From positions 1 through 41,236 of the forward strand of contig CALDSS010000093.1 in the NCBI GenBank assembly GCA_937924495.1: a DNA stretch of 41,236 nucleotides, written 5' to 3'. Shown in pieces: positions 346-34,688 of the stretch. The position numbers and the translations under genes were made by a program. The stretch comes from an uncultured Saprospiraceae bacterium. Lineage in GTDB: Bacteria; Bacteroidota; Bacteroidia; Chitinophagales; Saprospiraceae. Under the pieces are notes generated by a model. That model did not search any database. It saw only the letters and a list, made by a program, of their open reading frames with translations, and was not told the DNA's origin. Position 1 is the first letter of the stretch. Every line of letters begins with the position of its first letter.

Positions 346-1386
346 ATGAGACTTAGAAACTTACTTGCCACTTTCATTTTCGTTATTGGAATTGGAAATT
401 ACATTCAGGCTCAAGACATTCACTTTACCACTTGGGATATGGCTCCTTTAACGGTCAACCCTGCTTTTTCAGGTTCCTATCTTGGTAGTTTTAGGGTGGG
501 CGGTGTTTACAGAGACCAATGGTTTGGGTTTGAAGGTAGCCAGGGTAATTTTACCACACCAACCGCTTTTATTGATGCTCCAATCATTCGTGGACTTAGG
601 AAAAATGATTGGGTTGGAATTGGATTGATGTTTTTTTCAGATAAGGCAGGTACGTTTGATTTGGGATACTCTGCTACAAAAATATCAGCCGCTTATCATT
701 TAGGTTTAAATAAAAAACAAACCTCAGTTCTTACTTTAGGTTTTCAATGGGGACAAGGTAGTTATGATTTTACAGTACAGAATCCTAGCGATGTGGTTGC
801 CCAAGATGTTACTGAATTCAATATGCTTGCTGATGCTGGAGATCCATTTCAAGATTATAAAGTCGGTGTGTTGTTCAAATCACTGCTTAATAAAAGAATG
901 AATGTTTCTTTAGGCGCCTCGGGTGGTTATTTATCTACTCCACGAGTTGAAGTTTTATCAGCATCTGGGACGTCTGGCGGCGGTGGTGGAGTTGGTGGGA
1001 TAGGCTTTGAAAATCCACTTCTTCTTCAATTACACGGTCAGTTTGGAATTGGAATGACAGAAAAATGGTCTTTAACTCCACAGTTCTTTTATCAAACAAA
1101 AGCTGGTGCAAGTGAAGTTTCATTGCAAGCTTACGGAGGATATAAATTTAATAAAGATTATACTTTACGACCTGGTATAGGTTACAGAATGACTAACAAC
1201 GATGCAGTTGAATTTTTATTAGGAGTTGACATTAGAGACAATTTAAGAACAACACTTGCGTATGATCTTACCGTTTCAGAGCTTGCTGGGAGTACAGGTG
1301 GGGCTTTAGAAATAGGGGTTTCTTATATTGGAAAAATATTCAAGAAACCAGACATCAAGCCAGCTATCCTTTGTCCAAGGCTGTAA
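346..1386 (+). CDS. PorP/SprF family type IX secretion membrane protein
   Basis: Predicted outer-membrane beta-barrel of the PorP/SprF family, which helps export or anchor T9SS proteins and gliding adhesins. The 346-residue protein starts with a signal peptide ending near IQAQ, followed by the family hallmark (TVNPAFSGSY), alternating beta strands and a late ELAGSTGGALEIGVSY segment like the C-terminal family signature. A Gly-rich loop (GGGGGVGGIG) lies near residue 215. The next gene starts 45 bp downstream and encodes an OmpA-type partner, a usual Bacteroidota pairing. A second family member is at 10854-11879. Which adhesin it serves cannot be told; a partner upstream of the window is likely. 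Confidence 0.9.
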   Translation: MRLRNLLATFIFVIGIGNYIQAQDIHFTTWDMAPLTVNPAFSGSYLGSFRVGGVYRDQWFGFEGSQGNFTTPTAFIDAPIIRGLRKNDWVGIGLMFFSDKAGTFDLGYSATKISAAYHLGLNKKQTSVLTLGFQWGQGSYDFTVQNPSDVVAQDVTEFNMLADAGDPFQDYKVGVLFKSLLNKRMNVSLGASGGYLSTPRVEVLSASGTSGGGGGVGGIGFENPLLLQLHGQFGIGMTEKWSLTPQFFYQTKAGASEVSLQAYGGYKFNKDYTLRPGIGYRMTNNDAVEFLLGVDIRDNLRTTLAYDLTVSELAGSTGGALEIGVSYIGKIFKKPDIKPAILCPRL

Positions 1387-1431
1387 AATTCAAAATCCCT
1401 TAAATCTTAGTTTTTAAATTAAAAAGAGTAC

Positions 1432-3543
1432 ATGAAACATATATTTTCAATCATTTTCTTTTTGGGTATTTGTGCGACTGCAATTGGCCAACCAATTTCT
1501 GCATCAACTTATGGAACGAAGTTAGATTTGGCAGGTGAAGCAGTGGCAAGTAATGATTATTATAATGCATTGAAATATTACAAAGAGGCTTATGATGAGC
1601 GAAAGGATAAAGCTTTGATTCCTGATATCGCCGACCAACATTATAAACTTCGTGATTATAAAAAGGCAGAATCGTATTATCAACGATTATATAGAAAACG
1701 TAGAGGTAAAGCCATCGAGGTAGCTCCTGAAACGAGTTTCAAATATGCTCGTGTTTTAAAAATAAATGGCAAGTACGATGAGGCGATTGCTAAACTTCAG
1801 GAAGTTATTTCTAAAACAACTGATCAAACTTTAAAAGAGTTGGCGGAGTACGAGTTGAATGGTGCTGAGTATGCAAAGATTGCCAGACCAGTTCCTCGTT
1901 TGGAAATAAAAACGGCTGGAACAAAAGTTAATACGTCTTTTTCGGAGTATTCTGCTATCATTCAAGATGATGGCAACACCATGTATTTTACAACTTTCGA
2001 TAGAAATGATGTAATAATTCTGGATGGAGAAGATCAGGACTATCACGCTAAAATTTTCAAATCAACCAAGAAGGATGATAAATGGGGGAAGCCTCAAGCA
2101 TTGGGTGAAAAAATCAATAGACCTGGTTTTCATACTGGGAATGTCACTTTTACGAAAGATGGACAACGGATGTATTTCACTCGTCAATTAATCACAGGCA
2201 ACGAAGTATCTGAAAGTAAAATATTTTATGCAGATGCCACTGGTGATGGAATGTTTGGCGCTGCAAATGAATTAGGAGGAGCCAATGGCCCATGGATTGC
2301 AAAGCATCCAGCAATAGGCGAACTTTTCAACAAAGAAGTTCTCTTTTTTGTTTCGGATATGGATGGCGGAGAAGGAGGTATGGATCTTTGGTATGCCACC
2401 CATAAAGGAAATGGAATCTACGGTGATCCTGTAAACATGGGCCCAAAAATCAATACCACAGCTGATGAAGTAACACCTTTTTATAGAGATGGTACTTTGT
2501 ACTTTTCTTCAACGGGTCACCCAGGTATTGGAGGTATGGATATCTTTAATACCGTCTGGAATGGATCAATATGGAGTGAGCCTAAAAATATGGGTGTTGG
2601 TTACAATTCTCGATGGGATGATACCTATTTTACGATTGACCAAGAAGGATATAATGGAACCATTCTAAGTAATCGGGAAGGGACAAAATCTACGCATGGC
2701 AAAACTTGTTGTGATGATATCTATGAGTTCGGAATAAGTAAAATTAATGTAGATGCTTTAGTTGGAACTTTTAACGGTGAGACCAAAGAGCCATTATTGG
2801 GAGCCAATGTTCAACTTTTTGAAAGAAAAGACGGCCAACTTGTTCCAGTTGATGAGCAATCAGATCCTTCCGGAAATGCTTACAATTTTCCATTATTATT
2901 GGAAAGGTCATATATCGTAATCGCGATGGCTAATGGATTTTATCCAGATACGTCTGAATATATTAATACGGTTGGATTGACTGAGTCTAAGAAGATAGAA
3001 AGGAGACTTCGATTGAAGCCGATGCCAAAAGAGCCAGAATATGAAACGGTAGAAATTTCATTGAACGAACCTATCCGAATGAATAATATCTATTATGATT
3101 ATGATGATGATAAAATTCTTCCGGATGCAGAAATTGATTTAAGCCAGATTTTTGAATGGATGACTCAATACCCTGATATGGTGGTTGAATTATCTTCCCA
3201 CACAGATTCACGCGGGCGAGATGCCTACAATATGGATTTATCTCAGCGACGTGCCGAATCTGCTAAAGCTTGGCTCGTTGCCAGAAACATCGTGGGCGAA
3301 AGAATTCAAGCTAGAGGATATGGTGAAACTCAAATTTTAAATAGATGTACCAACGCTATCAAATGCTCGGATGAAGAACATAGGTTTAACCGTCGTACTG
3401 AGTTTAAAATTATTTCTGGTCCTACTTCAATCGAAATTAAAAAGACTGAAAAGCGCTTGAAGGTGGAAGAACCAAAGGTGCAAGAAAAACCTGCTCCACA
3501 ACGGCCGAAGCGTAAAAAACGTAAACGTAGAAGAAGGAATTAA
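1432..3543 (+). CDS. PorE-like protein: TPR, PD40 propeller, regulatory domain, OmpA
   Basis: Periplasmic or outer-membrane protein of 703 residues with a signal peptide ending near AIGQ. Domains in order: TPR-like helices (about 25-150), PD40/WD40-like beta-propeller (about 170-430, repeated MYFTR/LYFSS blades), carboxypeptidase-regulatory-like beta domain (about 440-530), OmpA C-terminal peptidoglycan-binding domain (about 550-665, with SHTDSRG and the NRRTEF arginines), and a very basic tail of Arg and Lys. This is the order described for PorE of Porphyromonas, which ties the T9SS to peptidoglycan. Being next to a porP-like gene supports a scaffold role for that barrel. Many paralogues share the plan, so it may not be the core PorE itself. 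Confidence 0.85.
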   Translation: MKHIFSIIFFLGICATAIGQPISASTYGTKLDLAGEAVASNDYYNALKYYKEAYDERKDKALIPDIADQHYKLRDYKKAESYYQRLYRKRRGKAIEVAPETSFKYARVLKINGKYDEAIAKLQEVISKTTDQTLKELAEYELNGAEYAKIARPVPRLEIKTAGTKVNTSFSEYSAIIQDDGNTMYFTTFDRNDVIILDGEDQDYHAKIFKSTKKDDKWGKPQALGEKINRPGFHTGNVTFTKDGQRMYFTRQLITGNEVSESKIFYADATGDGMFGAANELGGANGPWIAKHPAIGELFNKEVLFFVSDMDGGEGGMDLWYATHKGNGIYGDPVNMGPKINTTADEVTPFYRDGTLYFSSTGHPGIGGMDIFNTVWNGSIWSEPKNMGVGYNSRWDDTYFTIDQEGYNGTILSNREGTKSTHGKTCCDDIYEFGISKINVDALVGTFNGETKEPLLGANVQLFERKDGQLVPVDEQSDPSGNAYNFPLLLERSYIVIAMANGFYPDTSEYINTVGLTESKKIERRLRLKPMPKEPEYETVEISLNEPIRMNNIYYDYDDDKILPDAEIDLSQIFEWMTQYPDMVVELSSHTDSRGRDAYNMDLSQRRAESAKAWLVARNIVGERIQARGYGETQILNRCTNAIKCSDEEHRFNRRTEFKIISGPTSIEIKKTEKRLKVEEPKVQEKPAPQRPKRKKRKRRRRN

Positions 3544-4617: not shown

Positions 4618-6354
4618 TTATTTCAAAGTTACTGCAACCGTCATGGACGGGTCATAATCTCCCTTAATAATTGGTGTTTGCCGATTTCCAGTATATTCTT
4701 TAACGCCTTTATTAATAAAGTCAAAGAGTTCCTGAATAGATACAATACTATTGGTATTTGCATCAGCTTCCCCTTTCAACCCTCTAATCAAATAATGGCT
4801 AAATACACCTTGTCTCAATCCACTCGATTCAAGTGAAGTTTCGTCAGACTTAGAAGACATCAAAAGAGCAGTGCCTGCTTCTGCTTGCCCAAGGGTCTCA
4901 TAATACGTTTCTAAAGTTGCTAATTCAGAAGCACTTCTCGCAGCGAATAAACTTCCTGAGTGGCAGGCATCAGCAATACACAACTTGAATTTTGCATTAG
5001 ATTCAGCCATGATTTTGTTTATTTCATCATGGGGCAGTTTATTATTAAAACCATCATAGTTGATAGGTAAAAATGAACCTTTCAATCCATGACCGCTGAA
5101 GTAAAGCATTACTAAATCATTCGGCCCCGCTTTGCCAAATATTTCTTTCATTGTTCTGATGATATTACCTTTTGTTGCTTGCTCATCTATCAACAACCTA
5201 ATCTGATCATCTGGTAAAGCTCCGCCTGCTGGGCTTTTTAAGAACATACCCATTTCATAGGCATCATCTTTTGTATATCTTAATGCCGGCATGTGATTAT
5301 AAGAAGCAATTCCAACTACTACAGCATATACTTTGAAACCAGCTTTCTCGCGAATTGCTGCTTGAAGTTCGGAAGGGGATAATTCCTTCACGTGCTCTTC
5401 TACAATCTCTTCAATAATATCCTCTTCAGGTGCGCCTCCGGTTGAAGCTAAAATTTCATCAAAATCTCCAGGCTTATCCAAGCCCATATAATTTCCTTTA
5501 ATCCACCAGCCTTCAACTTGGGCACCATCCAATCTATACAAAGTTCCGTATCCGAAGAAACTATCATAAGCCCAAGAACCAGAGTATTTCTCTCCATTGG
5601 AGTAGTAAATAACCCCTTTTCCATGAGCCATATCATTTTTGAAAGAACCCACATATTTTGCTTCGCCACCTTCAAAAACATAAGTTCCGCTTCCGTTATC
5701 ACAATCACCTTCAACACATCCTTCACTACCAGATTGGATGACAGGGTTTCCTAAATATTCTCCTTTTTCCCAATCACCAGATACTTTTGTTCCATCAATA
5801 TTGAAAAAAGTGCCCTTTCCATGCGAATGGCCATTTTTGAAGCCTCCAACATATTTATCTCCGTTTACGAAAAAGAATGTTCCATATCCATCTATTTGGC
5901 CGCTGACAAATTGGCCTTCATATTTGCTTCCATCAGCATAAGCATATATTCCTTCTCCATTTTTACAATTGCCTTTTAAGCAACCAGATTGGATATTATC
6001 TTCCTCGATATCTACTTCTTTTCCAGGGAAAAGATTTTCGATAATTTCACCATATTTATCAATCGGATGGCCCCTTTTCCAACTCCCCGTCCACGTAGCT
6101 CCATCGGCAAATGTCATTGTTCCTCTACCTTCAGGGTACCTGTTTACCCATCCACCTTGGTATTTTTTACCATCGGTATAATAACAAGCACCTGTTCCAT
6201 GAATTTCTCCATTTTTGAATTGTCCAATGTATTTTGCACCACTTGGATAAATGTAAATACCAGTTCCATTTCTACAATCACCAGACTTGCATTGAGCTGA
6301 AAGTAAAGAGAACAAAAAGACTTGAAAAAAAACGAACAGAAATAGTTTTTTCAT
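4618..6354 (-). CDS. Secreted MORN-repeat caspase-like peptidase (C14 family)
   Basis: 578 residues with a signal peptide ending at LSAQ. The first half has three long repeats starting at about residues 22, 125 and 213. Each opens with a Cys pair and Gly pattern (CKSGDC, CLKGNC, CVEGDC; then NGxG) and holds about three MORN units (YxGxFKNGxxHGxG). An acidic linker (about 298-325) leads to a caspase/metacaspase domain (about 340-578) with catalytic His422 in YFSGHG and Cys464 in DACHSG. The catalytic pair is intact. The export signal suggests it acts in the periplasm or at the surface, unlike cytoplasmic defence caspases. Substrate unknown; no partner gene is adjacent. Confidence 0.9.
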   Translation of the reverse strand: MKKLFLFVFFQVFLFSLLSAQCKSGDCRNGTGIYIYPSGAKYIGQFKNGEIHGTGACYYTDGKKYQGGWVNRYPEGRGTMTFADGATWTGSWKRGHPIDKYGEIIENLFPGKEVDIEEDNIQSGCLKGNCKNGEGIYAYADGSKYEGQFVSGQIDGYGTFFFVNGDKYVGGFKNGHSHGKGTFFNIDGTKVSGDWEKGEYLGNPVIQSGSEGCVEGDCDNGSGTYVFEGGEAKYVGSFKNDMAHGKGVIYYSNGEKYSGSWAYDSFFGYGTLYRLDGAQVEGWWIKGNYMGLDKPGDFDEILASTGGAPEEDIIEEIVEEHVKELSPSELQAAIREKAGFKVYAVVVGIASYNHMPALRYTKDDAYEMGMFLKSPAGGALPDDQIRLLIDEQATKGNIIRTMKEIFGKAGPNDLVMLYFSGHGLKGSFLPINYDGFNNKLPHDEINKIMAESNAKFKLCIADACHSGSLFAARSASELATLETYYETLGQAEAGTALLMSSKSDETSLESSGLRQGVFSHYLIRGLKGEADANTNSIVSIQELFDFINKGVKEYTGNRQTPIIKGDYDPSMTVAVTLK

Positions 6355-12106: not shown

Positions 12107-15100
12107 ATGAGAACCCTTTATCTAATTTTGATTTTTTGTTTTATTTCTTCTTTTCTCACTGGGCAGATAAACCGTCAATCTGTTTTGGCTGACGGTGATA
12201 TTCTTAAAATTCCGATTTCAGAAACGGGAATTTATAAAATTGATTATACCTATCTCAAAAATGCTGAGGGAATAGATATTGACGCTTCCAATCCTCAAAA
12301 TATCAGTATTTATGGAAATGGTGGAGGAATGATGGAGGGATTAATTACTGCTAATTATAAGGCTCCAGAACAAGACTTGATTGAAAACCCGATCTTCATT
12401 TCTGGAGAGGGTGATGGTAAATTTGATGATGGTGATTTTATTCTTTTTTATGCCGAAGGGCCTTCAAAGTGGAAATACCAAAATGGAAAATTGACTCTAC
12501 CCACTAATTTATATGATTCTAAAAATTATTATTTCTTAAAAATAGGAGGTAGTGCTGGAAATAGAATCGAGTCTCAATCAAATCTTGATAATGCAAATGT
12601 TACAATCGATAAATTTGATGACGTAATCCGGCATGAGAGTGAAACCAAAAACCTTCTGGCTGATTGGGTTCAAGCTCAGGGTAGTGGAAGGTTATGGTAT
12701 GGCGAACAATTTAAAAATACCAGAGAAAGAGTTTTTGATAGCCAATTCCTTTTCGAAAATTTGATTTTGGAAGATAGTATTGATGTTGATGTAAGAATGG
12801 TTTCGAGAGCATTTGGGTCTAGTTCAAGATACTCAGTTGAAATCAATAATCAGAAGTTTACCAGTCCTACTTTTTCTTCAGTTGGTACAGGGAGTAGTAT
12901 CGTGCCTTATTGTTGGGCAAGAGTCATTGAGAAAAAGTTTAAACCTTCATCAAACAACATTGCTGTAAAAATAGACTACCCAAGATCAAGTTTTGAAACA
13001 GAGGCATGGTTAGATTACATTGAGATTTCTGGAAAAAGGAAATTGGAAATGGCGGGCGATCAAATGAGATTTAGAAATATCAGTACAATTGATTTTCAAG
13101 CCTCACAATTCAATTTATTGAATGCCAATTCTGATATTGAAATTTGGGACATTTCTGAGCCAACTGCTCCAACTCGACAAGAATTTGACTTAGATGGAAA
13201 TGCAATTTCTTTTATTGCTGAAACAAGGGGTCAGGTAAAGGAATTTATAGCTTTTAATAAAAACTCAGGATTCTTAACACCTGAAAAGTCTTCAGTAGTT
13301 GAAAATCAGAATGTTCATGGAATTGCGGATGCTGAATTGGTGATAGTTTATCATAGCGACTTCGAAGAAGCCGTTGAAAAATTAGCTGAATTTAGAAGAG
13401 AGCAGAATGGATTTGAAGTTTCAACAGTGAGAATTGATCATATTTTAAATGAGTTTTCCTCAGGAAGAATTGACCCAGTCGGAATACGTAATTTTTCCAA
13501 AATGCTACATGATCGAAATCCAGAGAAATATAAATGGCTATTATTATTTGGAGATGGTAGTTATGATTTTAGAGATATCAATGGGCATGGCAAAAATTTC
13601 ATTCCTGTTTATGAAACCTTAGAATCACACGATCCTGTCGATGCCTTTCCTGCAGATGATTATTTTGCTTTATTGACTGAAGGCGAAGGAGATGATCTCA
13701 GAGGAAAATTGGATATTGCTATCGGGAGGATTCCTGTCGAAACTTTAGACGAAGCTAATAACGTGGTAGATAAATTAATTAGCTACGACTCCCAACCTGA
13801 AAATTTGAGGGATTGGAGAAACAGATTGACATTGGTGAGTGATGATGACGATGATGATAGTCCTTGGACTCATGTCGATCCTTCCGAATATCATTACAAT
13901 GTGATAAAAGAGAAATACTCCAACTTTAATATTGACAAAATTTACTTAGACGCCTACACCCAAGTGGCTACCTCTGGCGGGCAAAAATACCCCGCCGTAA
14001 ATGAGGCAATTGATCAAACCTTATTTAAAGGGGTGCTTTTGATTAATTACTTCGGGCATGGTGGTCCAAAAGGATGGGCTCAGGAAAGAGTTCTGAAAGT
14101 TGAAAACATCTTATCATGGGATAATTCAGATAGGTTGCCTCTATTTATGACTGCAACCTGTACGTTTACGGGGTATGATGATCCTTCTTTCAAATCGGCC
14201 GGAGAAGAAGTTTTATTGAATCCAACCGGAGGAGCATTTATGCTACTTTCAACAACCAGAGCTGTTTATATTAATGGAAATGAAAAATTGGTCAAATCTG
14301 TCATGGAGCGAATATTTGAAAAAGTAGATGGCGAATATTTATCCTTAGGAGAAGTATTTTCTAATGGAAAAAATAGTTTAACTGCAGGTGATATTCGTAA
14401 TTCAAGAAAATTTGTACTCATTGGTGATCCTTCCATGAAATTAGCTTTGCCTAAGTATAAAGTTTCTACAACATTTATTAATGATCATGATGTTTTAGAT
14501 GGTGTGCCAGATACGCTTCGAGCACTTCAAGAAGTAACCATCGAAGGAATTGTTGAGAATGAGAATGGCGATATTATGCAAGATTTCTCTGGAGCCATTT
14601 ATCCTACCATTTACGATAAACCAGATACAATTTATACACTTGGCCAAGATGAAAGAAGTCCAGTGGCTCCTTTTGAATTACAGAAAAATGTTCTTTTTAA
14701 AGGAAAAGCAACTGTAGAAAATGGAAAGTTCAAATTCTCTTTTGTAATGCCGAAGGATATTAATTACGAGTTAGGAAATGGTAAAATAAGCTATTACGCA
14801 GAGAATGGGGTAGAACTTGATGCAACTGGAAATTACCAAAATATAATTATTGGCGGTACCAATCCTAATTTTGCAAATGATGATGAAGGGCCAGTTGTAG
14901 AAGTTTATATGAATGACGAGAATTTCAGATTCGGAGGAATCACAAATGAAAATCCGGTTTTGTTTGTGAAAGTGAGTGATGATAATGGCATCAACGTTGC
15001 AGGTAACAGTATCGGACATGATTTGACGGCTGTTTTAGATGGAAACAACCAAAATACTTTTGTCCTCAACGATTTTTATGAATCGAATCTTAATGATTAC

Positions 15101-15553
15101 ACTCAAGGAGAAGTAAGATACCCTCTTTTCAACCTTGAAGATGGATTACATAAAATTGAAGTTACGGCTTGGGATGTCGCTAATAATTTCGGTAGAGGAT
15201 TTACCGAATTTGTAGTCGCTTCATCCGAGCAAGCTGCCCTCCAGAATATTATAAATTATCCGAATCCTTTTATTGACCAAACTTGCGTTTCATTTGAGCA
15301 TAATCTTACTGGCCAAGATCTTTGGGCTCGAGTTGATATTTATGCAATGAATGGAAGTTTAGTGAAAACGATTATTCAAGAATTAAATGAGGAAAGTTCT
15401 AAGGAATGTATCCTATTTAATGGAACAAGTGATAACGGAGCTCGTTTGGCTAAAGGAATTTACGTTTACAACGTTAAAGTGATGGATAAAAATGGAGATT
15501 TAGGTAATTATTTAGGAGAAAGCGAGTTTGAAAAAATGGTTATCTTGAAATGA
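12107..15553 (+). CDS. porU: PorU: type IX secretion sortase/signal peptidase (C25 family)
   Basis: 1148-residue surface peptidase that removes the C-terminal sorting domain from T9SS cargo and attaches the cargo to the surface. It begins with a signal peptide ending at LTGQ. A gingipain-type C25 domain occupies roughly residues 400-790, with catalytic His651 in YFGHGGPKGW and Cys685 in TATCTFTG. Beta-rich domains follow, then its own C-terminal sorting-type domain (YPNPF near 1058, GIYVYNVKVMD near the end). A run of six Asp (about 580) lies in a loop. PorV is the next gene, its known partner in the attachment complex. The stop codon is followed directly by a 165-bp palindrome. Confidence 0.93.
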   Translation: MRTLYLILIFCFISSFLTGQINRQSVLADGDILKIPISETGIYKIDYTYLKNAEGIDIDASNPQNISIYGNGGGMMEGLITANYKAPEQDLIENPIFISGEGDGKFDDGDFILFYAEGPSKWKYQNGKLTLPTNLYDSKNYYFLKIGGSAGNRIESQSNLDNANVTIDKFDDVIRHESETKNLLADWVQAQGSGRLWYGEQFKNTRERVFDSQFLFENLILEDSIDVDVRMVSRAFGSSSRYSVEINNQKFTSPTFSSVGTGSSIVPYCWARVIEKKFKPSSNNIAVKIDYPRSSFETEAWLDYIEISGKRKLEMAGDQMRFRNISTIDFQASQFNLLNANSDIEIWDISEPTAPTRQEFDLDGNAISFIAETRGQVKEFIAFNKNSGFLTPEKSSVVENQNVHGIADAELVIVYHSDFEEAVEKLAEFRREQNGFEVSTVRIDHILNEFSSGRIDPVGIRNFSKMLHDRNPEKYKWLLLFGDGSYDFRDINGHGKNFIPVYETLESHDPVDAFPADDYFALLTEGEGDDLRGKLDIAIGRIPVETLDEANNVVDKLISYDSQPENLRDWRNRLTLVSDDDDDDSPWTHVDPSEYHYNVIKEKYSNFNIDKIYLDAYTQVATSGGQKYPAVNEAIDQTLFKGVLLINYFGHGGPKGWAQERVLKVENILSWDNSDRLPLFMTATCTFTGYDDPSFKSAGEEVLLNPTGGAFMLLSTTRAVYINGNEKLVKSVMERIFEKVDGEYLSLGEVFSNGKNSLTAGDIRNSRKFVLIGDPSMKLALPKYKVSTTFINDHDVLDGVPDTLRALQEVTIEGIVENENGDIMQDFSGAIYPTIYDKPDTIYTLGQDERSPVAPFELQKNVLFKGKATVENGKFKFSFVMPKDINYELGNGKISYYAENGVELDATGNYQNIIIGGTNPNFANDDEGPVVEVYMNDENFRFGGITNENPVLFVKVSDDNGINVAGNSIGHDLTAVLDGNNQNTFVLNDFYESNLNDYTQGEVRYPLFNLEDGLHKIEVTAWDVANNFGRGFTEFVVASSEQAALQNIINYPNPFIDQTCVSFEHNLTGQDLWARVDIYAMNGSLVKTIIQELNEESSKECILFNGTSDNGARLAKGIYVYNVKVMDKNGDLGNYLGESEFEKMVILK

Positions 15554-15718
15554 TGAAGTTTTTTAAAAATAGATTTTAAGTTGAAAATCCGATTTTAAAG
15601 AAACTGATTTTGCCAAATTTTAAATCCGTAGTATAAGACTATGAATTGAAAATTTGACATCTTCAGAACCTTTTAGCCTCGAATTTTCACAACTAAACTC
15701 CATTCTTAAACAACTTCA
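15554..15718. repeat. Long imperfect palindrome directly after the porU stop
   Basis: Starts TGAAGTT and ends AACTTCA, with the centre TAGT-ATAAG-ACTA at about 15635. The arms pair imperfectly along the whole length. The right arm, reversed, shares the 22-mer starting GAAGTTGTTTAAG with the palindrome at 27542-27703, and the left arm resembles that copy's other arm. It is probably a dispersed chromosomal repeat that forms a long RNA hairpin or a cruciform. The remainder of the porU-porV gap is T/A-rich and then holds the porV promoter. Confidence 0.75.
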
Positions 15719-15843
15719 ATCAAACTTTTTTTAAAAAAAACATTTTTGCTAAAATACCATTCCATTATTACCGTTTATGGTTTGAAAATTTAAGAATGCT
15801 TTAACAAAACCCGCTTTGAAAAAATCGCTTAGTGGGCTACACA

Positions 15844-15874
15844 TTTGGCAAAGCATATTTAATACATACTTTTG
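15844..15874 (+). promoter_or_regulatory. porV promoter (Bacteroidota type)
   Basis: TTTG (15844-15847), 19-nt spacer, TACTTTTG (15867-15874): an exact TTTG/TAnnTTTG match, 26 nt before the ATG at 15901. It lies inside the longer ORF-track reading and so argues against the upstream start at 15832. Confidence 0.65.
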
Positions 15875-15900
15875 CGATTTTTAAAAATACTTTCAATCTC

Positions 15901-17082
15901 ATGAGAAGAGAATTTATTTTACTATTCATTATTTGCTTTTCTTTTGCTGGTACCACATTCGGGCAGCAATGCACTGATGCAGATAGCAGACATCCAATTA
16001 CTGGTGAATTTTGCCTAAGATCTATATCAACCGCAGTTCCTTTTTTAAGGATTGTTCCTTCTTCAAGAGGTGCTGCTATGGGAGATGTAGGTATTGCACT
16101 TTCTCCAGATGCCAATTCTTTACACTTTAATGCTTCTACTTTGGCTTTCGCCGAAAAAGATATGAGTATGGCGCTGACTTTCACACCTTGGTTAAGAGCT
16201 TTAGGTTTAAATGATGTTTACTTGGCTTACCTAAGTGGTTATAGAAAGCTAAATGATCTACAAACAGTTGGTTTGAGTTTAAGATATTTCTCTCTGGGAA
16301 GTATTCAGTTTACGGATAATGATGGAAACCTTTTAAGTCAAGGAAGACCTTATGAATTTGAACTTGCTGGTGCCTTTGCCAGAAAGTTGACTGAAAAGTT
16401 CTCTGCTTCTATCACAGGTAAATTTATTTATTCAGATTTGGCATCTGGACAACAAGTACCTGGACAAGGTCAGACGATTGAGGCAGGAGTAGCTGGAGCT
16501 GCAGATGTAGGCTTTACGTATGAGTCTCCATTGAATGTAGGTGATTTAGATTCTGATTTAAGACTTGGATTAGCCTTTACGAATATCGGTTCTAAAATTA
16601 CTTATACCAACTCAATCAACAGAGATTTTCTTCCTGCAAACATTGGATTGGGTGCGGCTTGGAAAGTAAATATGGATAAGTATAATACAATTACTGCTGC
16701 CATCGATTTTAATAAATTAATGGTTCCGACGCCTGTTGCAAGTGGTGCGCATTTAGACCAGTCCGTTATTTCTGGCTTGTTGAGTTCTTTTGGTGATGCT
16801 CCTTCAGGTGGCGGTGAAGAATTGAGAGAGGTGATGTATTCTATCGGTGCTGAATATTGGTATGACAATCAATTTGCAGTAAGAGCAGGATACTTTAATG
16901 AGCACCAATCAAAAGGAAATAGAAAATATATGACTGTTGGATTAGGTTTGAAATACAACGTATTTGGGTTGGATTTATCTTACCTCGTACCTACTACAAG
17001 CCAACAAAATCCTTTGGATAATACTTTACGATTTACATTGACTTTCGACTTCGGTGAGGTTGGTGTGATTGCTGATGAATAA
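15901..17082 (+). CDS. porV: PorV (LptO): T9SS outer-membrane shuttle protein
   Basis: 393 residues from the ATG at 15901, chosen because it starts the signal peptide (MRREFILLFIICFSFAG, cut near FGQ) and follows a good promoter. Family marks are AVPFLRIVPSSRGAAMGDVG, LHFNASTLAF, FTPWLRALG and a FadL-like 14-strand barrel pattern ending in LRFTLTFDFG. PorV carries T9SS cargo from the translocon to PorU and the attachment complex. It follows porU, but the palindrome and its own promoter suggest separate transcription. Confidence 0.93.
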   Translation: MRREFILLFIICFSFAGTTFGQQCTDADSRHPITGEFCLRSISTAVPFLRIVPSSRGAAMGDVGIALSPDANSLHFNASTLAFAEKDMSMALTFTPWLRALGLNDVYLAYLSGYRKLNDLQTVGLSLRYFSLGSIQFTDNDGNLLSQGRPYEFELAGAFARKLTEKFSASITGKFIYSDLASGQQVPGQGQTIEAGVAGAADVGFTYESPLNVGDLDSDLRLGLAFTNIGSKITYTNSINRDFLPANIGLGAAWKVNMDKYNTITAAIDFNKLMVPTPVASGAHLDQSVISGLLSSFGDAPSGGGEELREVMYSIGAEYWYDNQFAVRAGYFNEHQSKGNRKYMTVGLGLKYNVFGLDLSYLVPTTSQQNPLDNTLRFTLTFDFGEVGVIADE

Positions 17083-22914: not shown

Positions 22915-25761
22915 ATGATCAAACGTTTACGAATAACCTACTTCTTAATACTCTTTTTCCTTTACGCGATAACTACTTTTTCACAGACCACGATTAAAGG
23001 AATAATATTAGATGCATCCAATAATGACCCTATTATTGGTGGCACATTGGTCATTCAAGGAACAGGCGATGGTACTGCCTCCGATTGGGATGGTACTTTT
23101 GAATTTTCTACCGAGCAAGCGTTACCCTTTATGCTTGAATTTTCTTACACAGGTTATGAAACAAAAGTAGTTGAAGTAAATTCAACTAAACGTTTGGAAG
23201 TCTTTCTATCGGAAGGTGTTGTAACAATTGATGCCGTAACTGTCAAAGGAAGTAGAATCTCCGATAAGCAAAAGGAATCGCCACTTACTGTGGAATCGAT
23301 GGATATCTTGGCTATAAAAGAAACTCCTGCTGCAAATTTTTATGATGGATTAGGTGCCCTGAAGGGAGTGGATTTAACGGCTGCCAGTTTAGGCTTTAAA
23401 GTCATTAACATGCGTGGCTTTAATAGTACGAGCCCAGTTCGTTCTCTCCAAATCATTGATGGAGTTGATAACCAAGCACCGGGTTTGAATTTTTCTCTTG
23501 GTAACTTTTTGGGTTCCTCAGAATTGGACGTGAATAAAGTAGAAATAGTGGTTGGTGCAAGTTCTGCCTTTTATGGCCCGAATGCTTTCAATGGAGTGAT
23601 TAGTATGGAAACCAAAGATCCTTTTTTTCATGATGGCCTTTCGGCAAATGTGAAATTAGGAGAAAGAAATATGTTAGATGCTGCAGTGAGATGGGCGGAT
23701 AAGTTTCAAAATAAGGATGGTAAAGATTATTTTGCCTACAAAGTGAATTTGAGTTATTTACGAGCAGACGATTGGGTTGCTGATAATTATGATCCAGTGG
23801 ATCATTCCAGAGTTCCTGCTAATAACCCAGGAGGGTTCGATGCTGTAAATATTTATGGGGATGAATATGTTTCAGGAGGTGATTTAACAGATTTAGCACT
23901 TAGCGAGCCAAATTCGACTATAGGTATTTTCTATAGAACAGGGTATCGTGAAATTGATCTGGTAGATTATGATACTCGAAATTATAAAGCAAATGCGGCT
24001 CTACATTTTCGACTTAAACCTGATGAAGAAGAACAATCTCCTGAAATAATTTTGTCTGGAAATTTTGGGTCTGGAACAACAGTTTATCAAGGTGACAATC
24101 GCTTTAGCTTAAAAGGCATCACATTCTTACAAAATAGACTTGAACTTCGTAAACGTAACAAGTATTTCGTAAGAGCCTATACTACAAGAACTGGTGCTGG
24201 AGATTCCTATGATCCTTATTTTACAGCACTTCAGTTGCAAGAATCATCCAAAGGACAAGTCGAATGGTTTTCCAATGATTATGGTGATTATTGGCTAAAT
24301 GTCGTGGTTCCCCAGATTGTGGATTCAGATTATCCAAAGTTAGAGTTTTTGAGAGACCCAGAAACAGGGCAAATAATAATTGACCCAGAAACAGGGCAAA
24401 TTGCAACGGATTTCGATATCGATGCAGCGAGAAAATGGTTGTTGGATAATCGAGAACAATTGACTCAATGGCATTCAGAAGCCGCTGAGATAGCGAATGG
24501 ACCAGGGAGACGTCAATCAACTTCGGTATCGTTTTTTGAACCAGGCACTCAAAGGTTTCAAGAGGAATTTGATAGAATTACTGGCTCACTAAGAAGTGAA
24601 GGTGGGACTAAGTTCTTTGATAATTCAGCACTTTATCATGCTCATGGTGAATATATATTTACTCCAACTTGGGTTGATAAAATTACGGTAGGAACCAATG
24701 CGCGATTATATGCACCTGTTTCAAAAGGAACAGTTTTTATTGATTCTGCGGATATAAAAATTACAAATCGGGAGGTTGGCTTTTATGGAGGAGCAGAAAA
24801 GTCTTTTTATGATAATAAAATGAAAGCTACGATAGCAGCAAGAGCAGATAAAAATGAAAATTTTGATTGGTTGTTTTCTCCTGCAGCAAGCTTAGTTTAT
24901 ACTCCTTCAAGAAATAATTATTTTAGAATCTCTTACTCTTCAGCTATTCGAAATCCAACTTTAAGTGATCAATATTTAGGATTAGATGTTGGACGTGCAA
25001 CCTTAGCTGGAAACCTTAAAGGGGTACAAAACTTAGTTACCATTGAATCACTGATAGATTTTTTGAACACACAGCAATCTATTTTATTAGATAGTTTTAA
25101 TATTAATGCAATAGCACCTGAAGAAGTGCAAACTTTTGAGGCAGGGGTCAGGACTACCTTGTTTGAAAAACTTTACGTTGATGCAGGATATTACTATAGT
25201 ATTTATAATAATTTCATTGGCTTTAGGGTTGGGGCAGATATTAAATTTGATGCTCTTGATAATGTTGAAAGGGTAAATGTTTTTAGATATGCTGCAAATT
25301 CTGAAAACCAAGTAGAAACTCAAGGATTTTCGATTGGTTTGAATTATTTCCTTCCTAATAATTTGGCTTTGAACGGAAATTACTCATGGAATAAATTGGT
25401 CAAAACAGTAGAGGATGATCCAATCATCCCCGCTTTTAATACACCTGAACATAAGTTTAATATTGGATTAAGTGGAAGAAATTTATCCATGAATTTCGGA
25501 GAGTCTCAATTGAAGAATTTTGGATTTAATGTGAATTATAAATGGATAGAAGGATTCATCTTTGAAGGTTCACCACAATTCACTGGTTTTATTCCAACTT
25601 ATGATATGCTTGATGCCCAAATAAATTTTGGAATCAAAAAGATAGATACAACCTTGAAAATAGGGGCGTCTAATGTGTTGAACAATAGAGCTTTCCAAAC
25701 ATACGGGGGGCCGAGGATTGGTAGATTAGCTTATGTGACTTTACTGTATGAACCTAAATAG
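22915..25761 (+). CDS. TonB-dependent receptor with carboxypeptidase-regulatory-like N-domain
   Basis: 948 residues from the ATG at 22915 (the ORF track begins at an upstream TTG). Signal peptide ends at TTFSQ. A beta-sandwich domain (about 22-105, GTASDWDGTFEFS) precedes the plug (about 120-235, with MRGFNS, SLQIIDGVDNQAP and VEIVVGASSAFYGPNAFNGVI) and a 22-strand barrel. It takes up an unknown ligand using TonB. No SusD-like gene is next to it, so it is not a standard SusCD pair. The next gene, 54 bp on, encodes an exported hydrolase-like protein. A 9-residue tandem duplication (DPETGQI twice) sits in a loop near 480-500. Confidence 0.88.
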   Translation: MIKRLRITYFLILFFLYAITTFSQTTIKGIILDASNNDPIIGGTLVIQGTGDGTASDWDGTFEFSTEQALPFMLEFSYTGYETKVVEVNSTKRLEVFLSEGVVTIDAVTVKGSRISDKQKESPLTVESMDILAIKETPAANFYDGLGALKGVDLTAASLGFKVINMRGFNSTSPVRSLQIIDGVDNQAPGLNFSLGNFLGSSELDVNKVEIVVGASSAFYGPNAFNGVISMETKDPFFHDGLSANVKLGERNMLDAAVRWADKFQNKDGKDYFAYKVNLSYLRADDWVADNYDPVDHSRVPANNPGGFDAVNIYGDEYVSGGDLTDLALSEPNSTIGIFYRTGYREIDLVDYDTRNYKANAALHFRLKPDEEEQSPEIILSGNFGSGTTVYQGDNRFSLKGITFLQNRLELRKRNKYFVRAYTTRTGAGDSYDPYFTALQLQESSKGQVEWFSNDYGDYWLNVVVPQIVDSDYPKLEFLRDPETGQIIIDPETGQIATDFDIDAARKWLLDNREQLTQWHSEAAEIANGPGRRQSTSVSFFEPGTQRFQEEFDRITGSLRSEGGTKFFDNSALYHAHGEYIFTPTWVDKITVGTNARLYAPVSKGTVFIDSADIKITNREVGFYGGAEKSFYDNKMKATIAARADKNENFDWLFSPAASLVYTPSRNNYFRISYSSAIRNPTLSDQYLGLDVGRATLAGNLKGVQNLVTIESLIDFLNTQQSILLDSFNINAIAPEEVQTFEAGVRTTLFEKLYVDAGYYYSIYNNFIGFRVGADIKFDALDNVERVNVFRYAANSENQVETQGFSIGLNYFLPNNLALNGNYSWNKLVKTVEDDPIIPAFNTPEHKFNIGLSGRNLSMNFGESQLKNFGFNVNYKWIEGFIFEGSPQFTGFIPTYDMLDAQINFGIKKIDTTLKIGASNVLNNRAFQTYGGPRIGRLAYVTLLYEPK
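24355..24401 (+). repeat. Tandem 20-bp perfect repeat, 27-bp period, in the receptor gene
   Basis: GACCCAGAAACAGGGCAAAT occurs at 24355-24374 and again at 24382-24401, giving two in-frame copies of DPETGQI. The lack of silent changes suggests a recent duplication. Confidence 0.9.
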
Positions 25762-25815: not shown

Positions 25816-27477
25816 ATGAAGAAGATTTTTACATTTTTTATGTTTGTACTCGTGCTAAATGCGAGTTATGCACAACGATATTTAGAGCCTGTTTTTGATA
25901 ATGTAACCGTTGTTCCAGATCAGCCATATGCTTTAAATTCCACGATGTTGCTTTTTGCCAACCTCGGTGCTACAGCAAAGGTTCCTTTATGGACGGACAT
26001 ATATATGCCTGAAGGTGATACTGAAACTGATAGACCTTTAGTTTTAGTTTTTCATACTGGTAACTTCCTTCCTCCAATCCTTAACCAGCAAATTGCTGGT
26101 CATAGAAAGGATTCCTCTGTGGTACATGTTTGTACTGAATTGGCAAAAAGAGGGTATGTAGCTGCTGCTGTTTCTTACAGAAGAGGCTGGAACCCTGCGG
26201 CTCAAGATCAGCCAACCAGAGCACTTGGATTGATTCAAGCGGCTTATAGGGGAGTTCAAGATGGTAGAACTGCTATTCGTTACTTCAAAGCTACAGCGCT
26301 TGCTGGTGGCAATCCTTATGGAATTGATCCAGAAAAAATTGCTGTTTGGGGTAATGGAACTGGTGGTTATTTGACCCTTGGTTTGGTTGGACTTTCCGAT
26401 TACAACGAAATTATAACTACGACTAATGGTACAGGTAAATTTCTTTTAGATACTGACGGAGATGGAGTAGTTGAAACTCCAATGGTGGTTCCGGCATATC
26501 ATGGAGATATTGAAGGAAAAGATACTACAATAGCTCCAAATGCAGCTTTTTTAATCCCTCAAGGAGATACGAGTAATTTTGGCTTTCATACTCAGTTTAG
26601 CTCTGATTTCCAATTAGGAATTAACATCGGTGGAGCATTGGGTGATATTTCATGGTTAAACGATAATACGACTCCCACTATCTCTGTTCAGTCAGCTTTT
26701 GATCAATTTGCACCTTACAACGATGCTGTTTTGATTGTTCCTACAACAGGTGATCCAATTGTGCAAGTACAAGGAGCACAACAAATTGGTGCTTCTCAAG
26801 AAGCCGCAGGAAATAACCAACCTTGGAAAGACTTTGGCTTTACAGATGATGTAACTGAATTGGCTCGGAAAAATTCAGCAATTGCAGGTCACCCATATTA
26901 CGAAGGTGTTTTGCCATGGGTACATGCAAGAAACAGCCTTGGAATTGATGAAGGTGTTGTAATTAACTGGTGGAACCCAGATGATGCTGCTATCGGTCTT
27001 GGAATTCCAGGTGTAGGTGTTCCTCATGAAGGAGCTCCATTAAATGCGATTCCTCATCCATCAGATTCTACTTTGACTTACCATACTCAAGGACTTATTC
27101 TTAATGAGGGTATGAGTGCGGCAAAAGCAAAAGCGAACTTGGATACGATTTTCCAATATGTTCTTCCAAGAACTTGTTTGGCACTTGGTTTAGATTGTGA
27201 TTTAGCTGGTTTTTCAAGCATTAAACACTTGGATGCTTCTGAATTAGGGTTGGTAATATCTCCAAATCCAACGCAAGATGTTACTTACATCAGAACTGAA
27301 AACGAAAACTTTAATGAAGTTAGAGTTTTTGATTTGCAGGGAAGATTGGTAGCAGGAGAAGATGGTTTAAATACTAGCTTCTATGCTTTAAAAAGAAATT
27401 CATTACCTGATGGAATGTATGCTGTTCAAATCAAATTTGATGATGGCGTCATCACTCAGAAGTTGATGTTTAACTAA
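25816..27477 (+). CDS. T9SS-exported alpha/beta-hydrolase-like protein lacking the Ser nucleophile
   Basis: 553 residues, signal peptide ending at SYAQ. Residues about 50-380 look like a carboxylesterase/BD-FAE-type alpha/beta hydrolase: DIYMPEGD, PLVLVFHTGNF (oxyanion side), RGYVAAAVSYR and the helix leading to IAVWGNGTGGYLTLG. At the nucleophile elbow the usual GxSxG reads GNGTG, so Ser is replaced by Gly181. The C-terminus (about 475-553) is a T9SS type A sorting domain (SPNPTQDVTYI, VFDLQGRLV, LPDGMYAVQI, QKLMFN). Probably made with the TonB-dependent receptor upstream. It may bind rather than cleave an ester, or use another nucleophile. Confidence 0.8.
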   Translation: MKKIFTFFMFVLVLNASYAQRYLEPVFDNVTVVPDQPYALNSTMLLFANLGATAKVPLWTDIYMPEGDTETDRPLVLVFHTGNFLPPILNQQIAGHRKDSSVVHVCTELAKRGYVAAAVSYRRGWNPAAQDQPTRALGLIQAAYRGVQDGRTAIRYFKATALAGGNPYGIDPEKIAVWGNGTGGYLTLGLVGLSDYNEIITTTNGTGKFLLDTDGDGVVETPMVVPAYHGDIEGKDTTIAPNAAFLIPQGDTSNFGFHTQFSSDFQLGINIGGALGDISWLNDNTTPTISVQSAFDQFAPYNDAVLIVPTTGDPIVQVQGAQQIGASQEAAGNNQPWKDFGFTDDVTELARKNSAIAGHPYYEGVLPWVHARNSLGIDEGVVINWWNPDDAAIGLGIPGVGVPHEGAPLNAIPHPSDSTLTYHTQGLILNEGMSAAKAKANLDTIFQYVLPRTCLALGLDCDLAGFSSIKHLDASELGLVISPNPTQDVTYIRTENENFNEVRVFDLQGRLVAGEDGLNTSFYALKRNSLPDGMYAVQIKFDDGVITQKLMFN

Positions 27478-32171: not shown

Positions 32172-34688
32172 ATGAATGTACATTTACGAAACACTAAATT
32201 TTGGTCTGTCATAGGCATTCTGCTCTTCGCAGTTTGTGGTGTGATTGGTCAAAATTACAAAATTGACCCACCTGAGGAGTACGAGGTCGTTCAGGGTCAA
32301 ACTTATGACTATGTTTACAGTCACTACGGCCCACAACAGTTTACTCGAATTGTAAACAATTTAACGAGTAACTATCACGGAATCTATAACAACTCCTCAA
32401 ACCCTCGTCCTCAAAGAATTGGGGCTACCTCTTACAAAATTTCTTACAATACTAATGTTGGAACGATTGGGTTAGATACACTAACAATTGAATATTTCGC
32501 TTCAGGTTTTACCTTTCAGCGAAGAATCGTTTTTAATGTAGTGCCATCTATAGTAAGGGCTGAGGATGATTTTATATGTATTCCTTTGGGAGCTTCCGTC
32601 GGAATTCCGATTGAAAATAATGATTACAGCAATAGAAGTGTTTTGAATATCACGGATATTTCTGTTGAAAATAACGGATCTGTTTCCGTTGCTAATAACA
32701 TTGCTACATTCACGCCTTCTAATAATTTTGAAGGATTAGCAAATTTCAATTATGTTATCTGTGATGATATTGGGACCTGCGACAAAGCAACAGTACATGT
32801 GTGTGTTGGAGATCCGAATGGGTATGCCAACAGTACAATCGATTTGATCACCAAAAAGAATAAAAATCTCCCTGTATTTACTCCATTAGACGACTACTCA
32901 AACACTCAAAATCCATCTAATGGTACCCTAACAAGCATGAATGGAATCCTTTACTATTCTCCAAATGCGGGATATCACGGGGCTGATGAGTTTAAATACA
33001 CCCACAATATTACTGGCATTGTGAAAACTATTGCAGTTGATGTTTTAGATATTGAGGCTAACAATGAATATGTAAAGGATGATTTAGGTTATACATTCAT
33101 TGATGATTCCTACATTATTAATGTAACGGAAAATGATGAATTTGGAATTAGTCTCTTCAATGTAGGTATTGTAAATGGGCCAAATAACGGAAGCGTTGTT
33201 CAGGTTCCAGGACTGAAAGGGATTTATATTTACACTCCTAATCCTGGATTTACAGGAATTGACGAGTTTACCTATTCTGCTTCTCCAGCTTCCAATGGCT
33301 CAAATCCAGAAGAAGGGATTGTTTCTATTATTGTTAATGATTTGAACCCTGCTTTTCCAACCTTTGACCTAAGGACGCCCGTAAATACGCCATTAGTAAT
33401 CGATTATAATATAGAACCAACTTCCTTTATTTTTAATATTACTAGTAATCCAACAAAAGGGAATGTAATTTTTCTACCTGGGATTGTAGATACTACAATT
33501 AGCAACCAAGTAATTAAAGGAAATAACATAGTTGTCTATACTCCTAATTTGAATGCTACAGGGCACGACGAATTTGAGTTGGAATACTGTGCCGGAATTG
33601 GAACTAATTGCCCAACAGTCAAGGTAAACGTTGATGTTCAAAATATTATGTCTAGCAATATTTGTTTTGGAACAGACTGCGTTTGGCCTGGAGATGCAAA
33701 TGATGATGGAATTGTGAACTTGAAAGATATGTTGCCAACGGCTTGGTGTATCGGTGATGTCGGAACCTCAAGATATAGTGCCACCATAAATCCTTGGCAC
33801 GGACAAAGTAGTACTAACTGGGGAATTGTTTTTCCTCATACAGATGTTGATTTGAAGCATTTGGATTCAAATGGAGATAGTTTAATCAACATTTCTGATA
33901 CAACTGCTATTGGTCAACATTATCAGAAAAACCATAGTCTTTCTCCTACACCTATTAGCTTTCCAGCAAATATTCCTTTGTTTTTGGGCACACCTGATAC
34001 CATTCATGTAGTAGGACCTGGAGATACTATCCGAATTCCAATTATCCTTGGAGATCCAAGTTATCCTGCAAAAAATATGTATGGCTTAACTTTTAATATT
34101 GATTATGACCCAACTGTGGTCAATCCTTCTGGAACGAATATTCACTTTGATAAAGAAAGTTGGGCTAATTATACTTCCCCTGTAATGAACATGGTAAAAT
34201 CTCCCTTTATAGGAAGATTAGATGCGGCATATTCTCGAACCAACGGTGTAACAACTGATGGGTATGGAAGAGTAGGCTATGTTGATTTCGTCATTATTGA
34301 AGATTTAGAGTTTCAAAAACTTCCAGAAAAATTCTTCGCCAGAATCAATGGTAGTTTCTTTGACGGTAATGGAGGTTACACTGATTTCGATGAGTCATTC
34401 GTTACCTTTAAATTCAGAGACCAAGAAGATGTTAAGCGTGGTAATGATGTTCAATTATTTCCTAACCCTACTTCTGATTATATAAATTATCAGGCAGTGG
34501 ATGGAAATGAAAATATTAATGAAATTGAAGTATTCGACATTGCAGGAAAAGCTGTTCTAAGAGCTTCTCATCAACAATTAAATGGTAGAGTAAATACTTC
34601 AGATTACCACTCTGGCGTTTATGTAATACGTTTAAATACAACTACTGGAGTTGTAACTAAGAAGTTTAGAGTAATATCTGGTAGATAA
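32172..34688 (+). CDS. Large T9SS-exported protein with Ig/cadherin-like, dockerin-like and cohesin-like parts
   Basis: 838 residues, signal peptide ending at VIGQ. Residues about 30-490 hold repeated cadherin/Ig-like domains (IPIENNDYS, NVTENDEFG, YTPNPGFTGIDEFTY). About 500-600 has two Ca-binding dockerin-type loops, GDANDDGIVNLKDM and DSNGDSLINISD, split by an insert of some 45 residues. About 606-745 resembles a cohesin beta-sandwich (DTIRIPIILGD, MYGLTFNIDYDPTVV). The end (about 755-838) is a T9SS type A sorting domain (LFPNPTSDYI, VFDIAGKAV, GVYVIRLNT). Likely a surface adhesin or scaffold. This dockerin form is one I associate with Saprospiraceae cargo proteins. No enzyme domain seen. 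Confidence 0.82.
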   Translation: MNVHLRNTKFWSVIGILLFAVCGVIGQNYKIDPPEEYEVVQGQTYDYVYSHYGPQQFTRIVNNLTSNYHGIYNNSSNPRPQRIGATSYKISYNTNVGTIGLDTLTIEYFASGFTFQRRIVFNVVPSIVRAEDDFICIPLGASVGIPIENNDYSNRSVLNITDISVENNGSVSVANNIATFTPSNNFEGLANFNYVICDDIGTCDKATVHVCVGDPNGYANSTIDLITKKNKNLPVFTPLDDYSNTQNPSNGTLTSMNGILYYSPNAGYHGADEFKYTHNITGIVKTIAVDVLDIEANNEYVKDDLGYTFIDDSYIINVTENDEFGISLFNVGIVNGPNNGSVVQVPGLKGIYIYTPNPGFTGIDEFTYSASPASNGSNPEEGIVSIIVNDLNPAFPTFDLRTPVNTPLVIDYNIEPTSFIFNITSNPTKGNVIFLPGIVDTTISNQVIKGNNIVVYTPNLNATGHDEFELEYCAGIGTNCPTVKVNVDVQNIMSSNICFGTDCVWPGDANDDGIVNLKDMLPTAWCIGDVGTSRYSATINPWHGQSSTNWGIVFPHTDVDLKHLDSNGDSLINISDTTAIGQHYQKNHSLSPTPISFPANIPLFLGTPDTIHVVGPGDTIRIPIILGDPSYPAKNMYGLTFNIDYDPTVVNPSGTNIHFDKESWANYTSPVMNMVKSPFIGRLDAAYSRTNGVTTDGYGRVGYVDFVIIEDLEFQKLPEKFFARINGSFFDGNGGYTDFDESFVTFKFRDQEDVKRGNDVQLFPNPTSDYINYQAVDGNENINEIEVFDIAGKAVLRASHQQLNGRVNTSDYHSGVYVIRLNTTTGVVTKKFRVISGR

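Follow-up and report, generated by a model that had tools for sequence, protein, structure and literature searches.

A predicted type IX-exported pseudo-esterase encoded with a TonB-dependent receptor in Saprospiraceae, a putative ligand-capture partner of the transporter

A contig of 41,236 nucleotides from an uncultured Saprospiraceae bacterium (CALDSS010000093.1, assembly GCA_937924495.1), the whole of which is called the window here, carries a gene for an esterase-like protein directly downstream of a gene for a TonB-dependent receptor (Table 1). The nucleophile elbow of this protein has Gly in place of Ser, and the locus raises the question of what an esterase fold that has lost its nucleophile may do beside an outer membrane transporter. 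The initial annotation had suggested a surface ligand-binding protein with a SusD-like role.

Table 1. Features of the window and of the two-gene unit
Feature	Position	Strand	Length	Basis
BD-FAE-type alpha/beta hydrolase, predicted to be non-catalytic, with T9SS type A sorting domain	25816..27477	+	553 aa	domain matches, AlphaFold2 model
Predicted signal peptide, residues 1-19, ...SYA/Q, signal peptidase I type, no lipobox Cys	25816..25872	+		sequence; family N-termini
Rewritten oxyanion loop H80-T-G-N-F-L-P86 (Ser-type relatives: HGGxF)	26053..26073	+
Nucleophile elbow G179-N-G181-T-G183, Gly181 replacing Ser	26350..26364	+
Asp296, kept acid of the former triad	26701..26703	+
T9SS C-terminal sorting domain, residues 481-551	27256..27468	+		Pfam/NCBIfam; fold match RemA CTD
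Partner TonB-dependent receptor (CarbopepD_reg_2, plug, barrel)	22915..25761	+	948 aa from ATG 22915
Insert of the receptor (residues 471-510) within a predicted extracellular loop, almost wholly lacking in partnerless paralogues	24325..24444	+
PorU-like C25 peptidase beside PorV, T9SS sortase machinery	12107..17082	+
PorP/SprF-like gene beside an OmpA/PD40/TPR protein, T9SS part	346-3543	+
Fusion of a caspase-like (C14) peptidase with MORN repeats	4618-6354	-
Another T9SS cargo, carrying three Big_9 (bacterial Ig) domains	32172-34688	+

The hydrolase fold and its catalytic positions

The product of the downstream gene matched the Pfam model BD-FAE over residues 61-200 with 35.2 bits (cut-off 26.8) and, at its C-terminus, Por_Secre_tail with 39.3 bits (cut-off 27), both calls lying above Pfam's curated cut-offs; the type A sorting model TIGR04183 scored 44 bits (cut-off 23). 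The AlphaFold2 model (mean pLDDT 86.5) has an alpha/beta hydrolase fold in which residue 181 is located exactly between strand 170-180 and helix 182-192, as in a classical nucleophile elbow. Fold searches with the main domain retrieved the esterases 5ao9, 6nkf and 6tkx, and the C-terminus was matched to the RemA CTD (8gl6, TM 0.84). The closest sequence in the PDB was Lip_vut4 (6nkf), with GDSSGG at the elbow; the corresponding stretch of the window protein is W178-G179-N180-G181-T182-G183-G184-Y185. The BD-FAE profile was matched by 32 of 33 family members.

To collect homologues, a family profile was run against 299 genomes from the order and 396 from the phylum. Matches above 300 bits were taken as full-length members (n = 139 after removal of duplicates), and 24 of the weaker matches below 260 bits, all of them with Ser at the elbow, were sampled for comparison as Ser-type relatives. 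The family profile was derived from members found in a first single-sequence search, nearly all of them linked to a receptor; this first search itself gave the same picture, with about 30 full-length homologues from 61 related genomes and Gly at the nucleophile position in 27 of 30. A second collection, drawn from named public contigs labelled mostly Saprospiraceae and partly overlapping the first set, had Gly in 82 of 83.

None of the 139 members possesses Ser at the nucleophile position, which is occupied by Gly in 111, Asn in 24, Asp in 2, and Glu and Ala in one each. The catalytic His was likewise absent from all 139, and no His was found at an alternative HxPW alignment position scored in 134 members, whereas Ser, Asp and His were all retained in each of the 24 sampled Ser-type relatives. 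The acid at position 296 was kept in 136/139 (119 Asp, 17 Glu), the members of family f9 having Glu instead of Asp. The oxyanion motif, HGGxF in the Ser types, reads HTGNFLP in the family, and its His80 occurs in 126/139 members and in 19/24 of the sampled Ser-type relatives. The Gly at the elbow described in the initial annotation is thus confirmed by the elbow sequence, the model and the homologues, and one finding named there as refuting, homologues with Ser in the same context, did not occur (0/139). The loss of the catalytic His and the change of the oxyanion motif had not been mentioned. With Ser converted to Gly and the catalytic His gone, the serine-hydrolase reaction would not be possible for this protein, and judged by its sequence the family is a pseudoenzyme, presumably without activity. 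Chance or a sequencing error at Gly181 was ruled out by the conservation in a large family, and a pseudogene by open frames of full length (482-557 aa, 5th to 95th percentile, n = 139).

In a maximum-likelihood tree calculated with the elbow columns left out, the Ser types were split from the dead-hydrolase family with a support of 100, and the Gly and Asn members were placed on opposite sides of one branch with a support of 95. Linkage to a receptor was found in both the Gly and the Asn clade, so the link must be old. The simplest history is a single loss of catalysis and an early tie to the receptor, after which the elbow position, now free, diverged. Two further observations were made on the elbow. 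The elbow of the Asn clade, GG[ST]NSG[GA]Y, puts a Ser directly after the nucleophile position (loci L068, L238, L029 and relatives; families f9 and f22), and tandem copies of the dead hydrolase were present at four loci (L189, L217, L235 and L249), one copy at L189 having Glu at the elbow.

The sorting domain claimed initially was upheld by both domain models, and the protein has the properties of a T9SS type A cargo, the window also encoding PorU-like C25, PorV and PorP/SprF proteins. Since the sortase machinery lies in the same window, the export route is encoded there, and the protein is probably located at the cell surface. Domain searches of the hydrolase found no SusD domain. Its signal peptide without a lipobox, its fold and its sorting domain also set it apart from lipid-anchored beta-propeller proteins, and a lipobox-like string was found in just 8 of the 139 family members.

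The receptor and the two-gene unit

The start of the receptor is probably ATG 22915 rather than TTG 22879, because a good signal peptide begins at the ATG. The receptor gene ends 54 nt upstream of the hydrolase ORF, and no SusD gene adjoins it, both as originally noted; three SusD genes are present elsewhere in the genome. With 106 bits against the SusC/RagA model (cut-off 368), the receptor falls far below that family, and a SusC/SusD reading was rejected for the receptor and its partner from domain and model scores. The receptor model (pLDDT 74.9, moderate) resembles Cir, PirA, PfeA, BtuB, the Bacteroides BtuB (8p98, 8bmx) and XusA (9gbc), and a complex of FhuA with a superinfection-exclusion lipoprotein (8a60) was also among the fold matches. 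By this fold resemblance the receptor is modelled like a small-molecule transporter and not like SusC, and the hydrolase is co-encoded with a TonB-dependent transporter of what, by the same resemblance, would be the small-molecule type. One long predicted extracellular loop of the receptor was about 35 residues longer than in the paralogues (median 138 versus 101; 2 of the 17 paralogues are exceptions), and the insert at residues 471-510 is a candidate docking site for the hydrolase.

For 115 of the 139 members a receptor gene precedes the hydrolase gene on its strand, with a median gap of 39 nt and within 200 nt in 111; in 3 more members it was detected by tblastn alone, which brings the count to 118. 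Among the partly overlapping named public contigs the receptor was upstream in 77 of 78. The association of the homologues with TonB receptors, which the initial annotation had proposed to check together with the conservation of the Gly, therefore holds for most of the family. In the 299 genomes of the order, with presence set by sequence-score thresholds, both genes were found in 112, the receptor alone in 3, the hydrolase alone in 5 and neither in 179 (Fisher p about 1e-71, a value in which independence is overstated owing to shared ancestry). The genomes with a single gene, 5 with a hydrolase but no detected receptor and 3 with the reverse, were mostly fragmented drafts. In the family of the window about four fifths of the sampled genomes carried the pair, and the presence patterns of the two genes agreed in every listed genome except G020, where fragments of both genes lie at contig ends; in genome G211 fragments of both lie on one contig. 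The pair was present in most genera sampled and in several families. In two other families of the order the genes were often unlinked, and most of those genomes still carried both.

None of the 24 sampled Ser-type relatives adjoined this receptor, a count that refers to neighbours related to it and, for some of the Ser types, to about 1.5 kb of upstream sequence. Receptor paralogues at about 40% identity had no dead hydrolase as a neighbour, and distant relatives of the receptor, found on plasmids of Spirosoma and Hymenobacter, had unrelated neighbours. Across the loci compared no conserved neighbour was found besides the receptor and the hydrolase, and since the pair alone is conserved the neighbouring genes gave no hint of a ligand. 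A gene for a ZIP-type metal transporter was seen on the same strand just upstream of the receptor at four loci in four genera (L041, L048, L050 and L063), which probably reflects shared synteny only. Linkage and co-occurrence show a functional coupling of receptor and hydrolase, as distinct from contact between them.

Capture of a ligand, contact or catalysis

The coupling could be explained by a dedicated ligand-capture partner, by a partner for protein contact, by an unusual enzyme, or by mere convenience of transcription. We favor the first, namely that the T9SS-exported pseudo-esterase is a dedicated surface ligand-capture partner, or lid, of the TonB-dependent transporter whose gene precedes its own, with a probability of roughly 0.6. 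In this reading a BD-FAE-type esterase lost its catalytic His and had its nucleophile Ser changed to Gly (Asn in the sister clade). Exported by the type IX system and then kept at the cell surface, it would form the outer lid of the transporter in a putative complex. The remodelled former active-site cleft may bind but not cleave a small molecule, possibly one resembling a siderophore, cofactor or ester, and the captured molecule would be passed to the transporter as from BtuG to BtuB and from XusB to XusA. The known lids of this type are lipoproteins, but no lipid anchor was found on the hydrolase; its retention at the surface could be provided by A-LPS or by the receptor.

The active-site cleft of the alpha/beta hydrolase fold is lined by the loops after strands 3, 4 and 5. 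The loops of the former active-site face had an entropy of 1.53, as compared with 1.89 for the opposite loops and 1.95 for the domain. Conserved polar and aromatic residues include W125, invariant in 139/139, R135, Y144 and Y185, some of which are located in the cleft-lining loops. A cleft that has lost its catalytic residues and yet is conserved argues for binding. The same conservation bears on the possibility that the protein serves contact with another protein, as a scaffold, a gate, a shield (for example against phages or bacteriocins) or an adhesion molecule similar to neuroligin. The linkage and co-occurrence fit this equally, the complex 8a60 among the receptor fold matches can be cited for it, and the family profile weakly matched neuroligins in the PDB (E 4e-5); neuroligin, which lacks the active-site serine, is non-catalytic and has a binding function (PMC8526735). 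However, the greater conservation of the former active-site loops is easier to reconcile with a ligand pocket than with a binding surface lying wholly on the outside, and we consider a role in contact rather unlikely.

Residual catalysis is less probable still. The protein would then act on the substrate of the receptor before uptake by a non-classical mechanism based on Asp296, His80 and other conserved residues, for which the acid kept at 296, the frequent His80 and the conserved polar and aromatic residues could be cited. Yet the nucleophile and the general-base His are absent in 139/139, His80 is shared with most of the sampled Ser-type relatives, where it is part of the oxyanion motif, and a nucleophile position varying between G, N, D, E and A would be hard for one mechanism to tolerate. 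The chance that convenience alone accounts for the co-transcription of the two genes, their products being independent, is very slight, given that the pair is kept across most sampled genera and several families, near one-to-one even when the genes are separated, with every other neighbour varying.

If the capture reading is right, a T9SS-exported dead esterase would extend the range of transporter lids as well as the functions of T9SS cargo. The odds are about even that the protein is the first example of a new class of capture module for TonB transporters, in which a surface esterase lost catalysis early in the order and, as a type IX-exported pseudoenzyme instead of a lipoprotein, was fixed as a substrate-capturing lid of one small-molecule transporter. 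The pair gives narrow and testable access to an uptake system without a known substrate. The genes of the family match esterase models and yet should not be named esterases.

Comparison with known systems

Within the literature searched, nothing directly relevant was found on TonB receptors with a pseudoenzyme or a T9SS partner; those partners of Bacteroidota TonB transporters for which a description was found are lipoproteins with a SusD or a beta-propeller fold. The SusD-like role proposed in the initial annotation stands as an analogy only, in that SusCD shares the notion of a TonB-dependent transporter capped by a partner at the surface. SusD belongs to an unrelated lipoprotein family, and given the SusC score of the receptor and the lack of an adjoining SusD, BtuG and XusB are the closer comparisons. 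The BtuBG system for vitamin B12 uptake (PMC10404256) likewise pairs a small-molecule TonB-dependent transporter with a dedicated surface partner from the same operon, and the receptor model of the window matches its Bacteroides BtuB; BtuG, however, is a beta-propeller lipoprotein, whereas the window protein has an alpha/beta hydrolase fold and a T9SS route. The xenosiderophore system XusAB (PMC13142918) also consists of a partner and a transporter with a carboxypeptidase-like N-terminal domain, XusA being among the fold matches of the receptor; XusB, a lipoprotein folded as a seven-bladed beta-propeller, has known siderophore ligands and differs in fold and export route. With the BD-FAE or acetyl-xylan and feruloyl esterases (PF20434; Lip_vut4 6nkf, Est2 5ao9, 6tkx) the window protein shares the fold and the elbow and acid positions, but it is without the nucleophile Ser and the catalytic His, its oxyanion motif is altered, and its gene is tied to that of a receptor. 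In neuroligins the same fold lost its active-site Ser and turned into a surface protein that binds without catalysis; these are animal synaptic adhesion proteins without a transporter partner, and the likeness is convergent. The pseudo-esterase would then parallel, in bacteria, the path by which neuroligins turned from hydrolase into binding protein.
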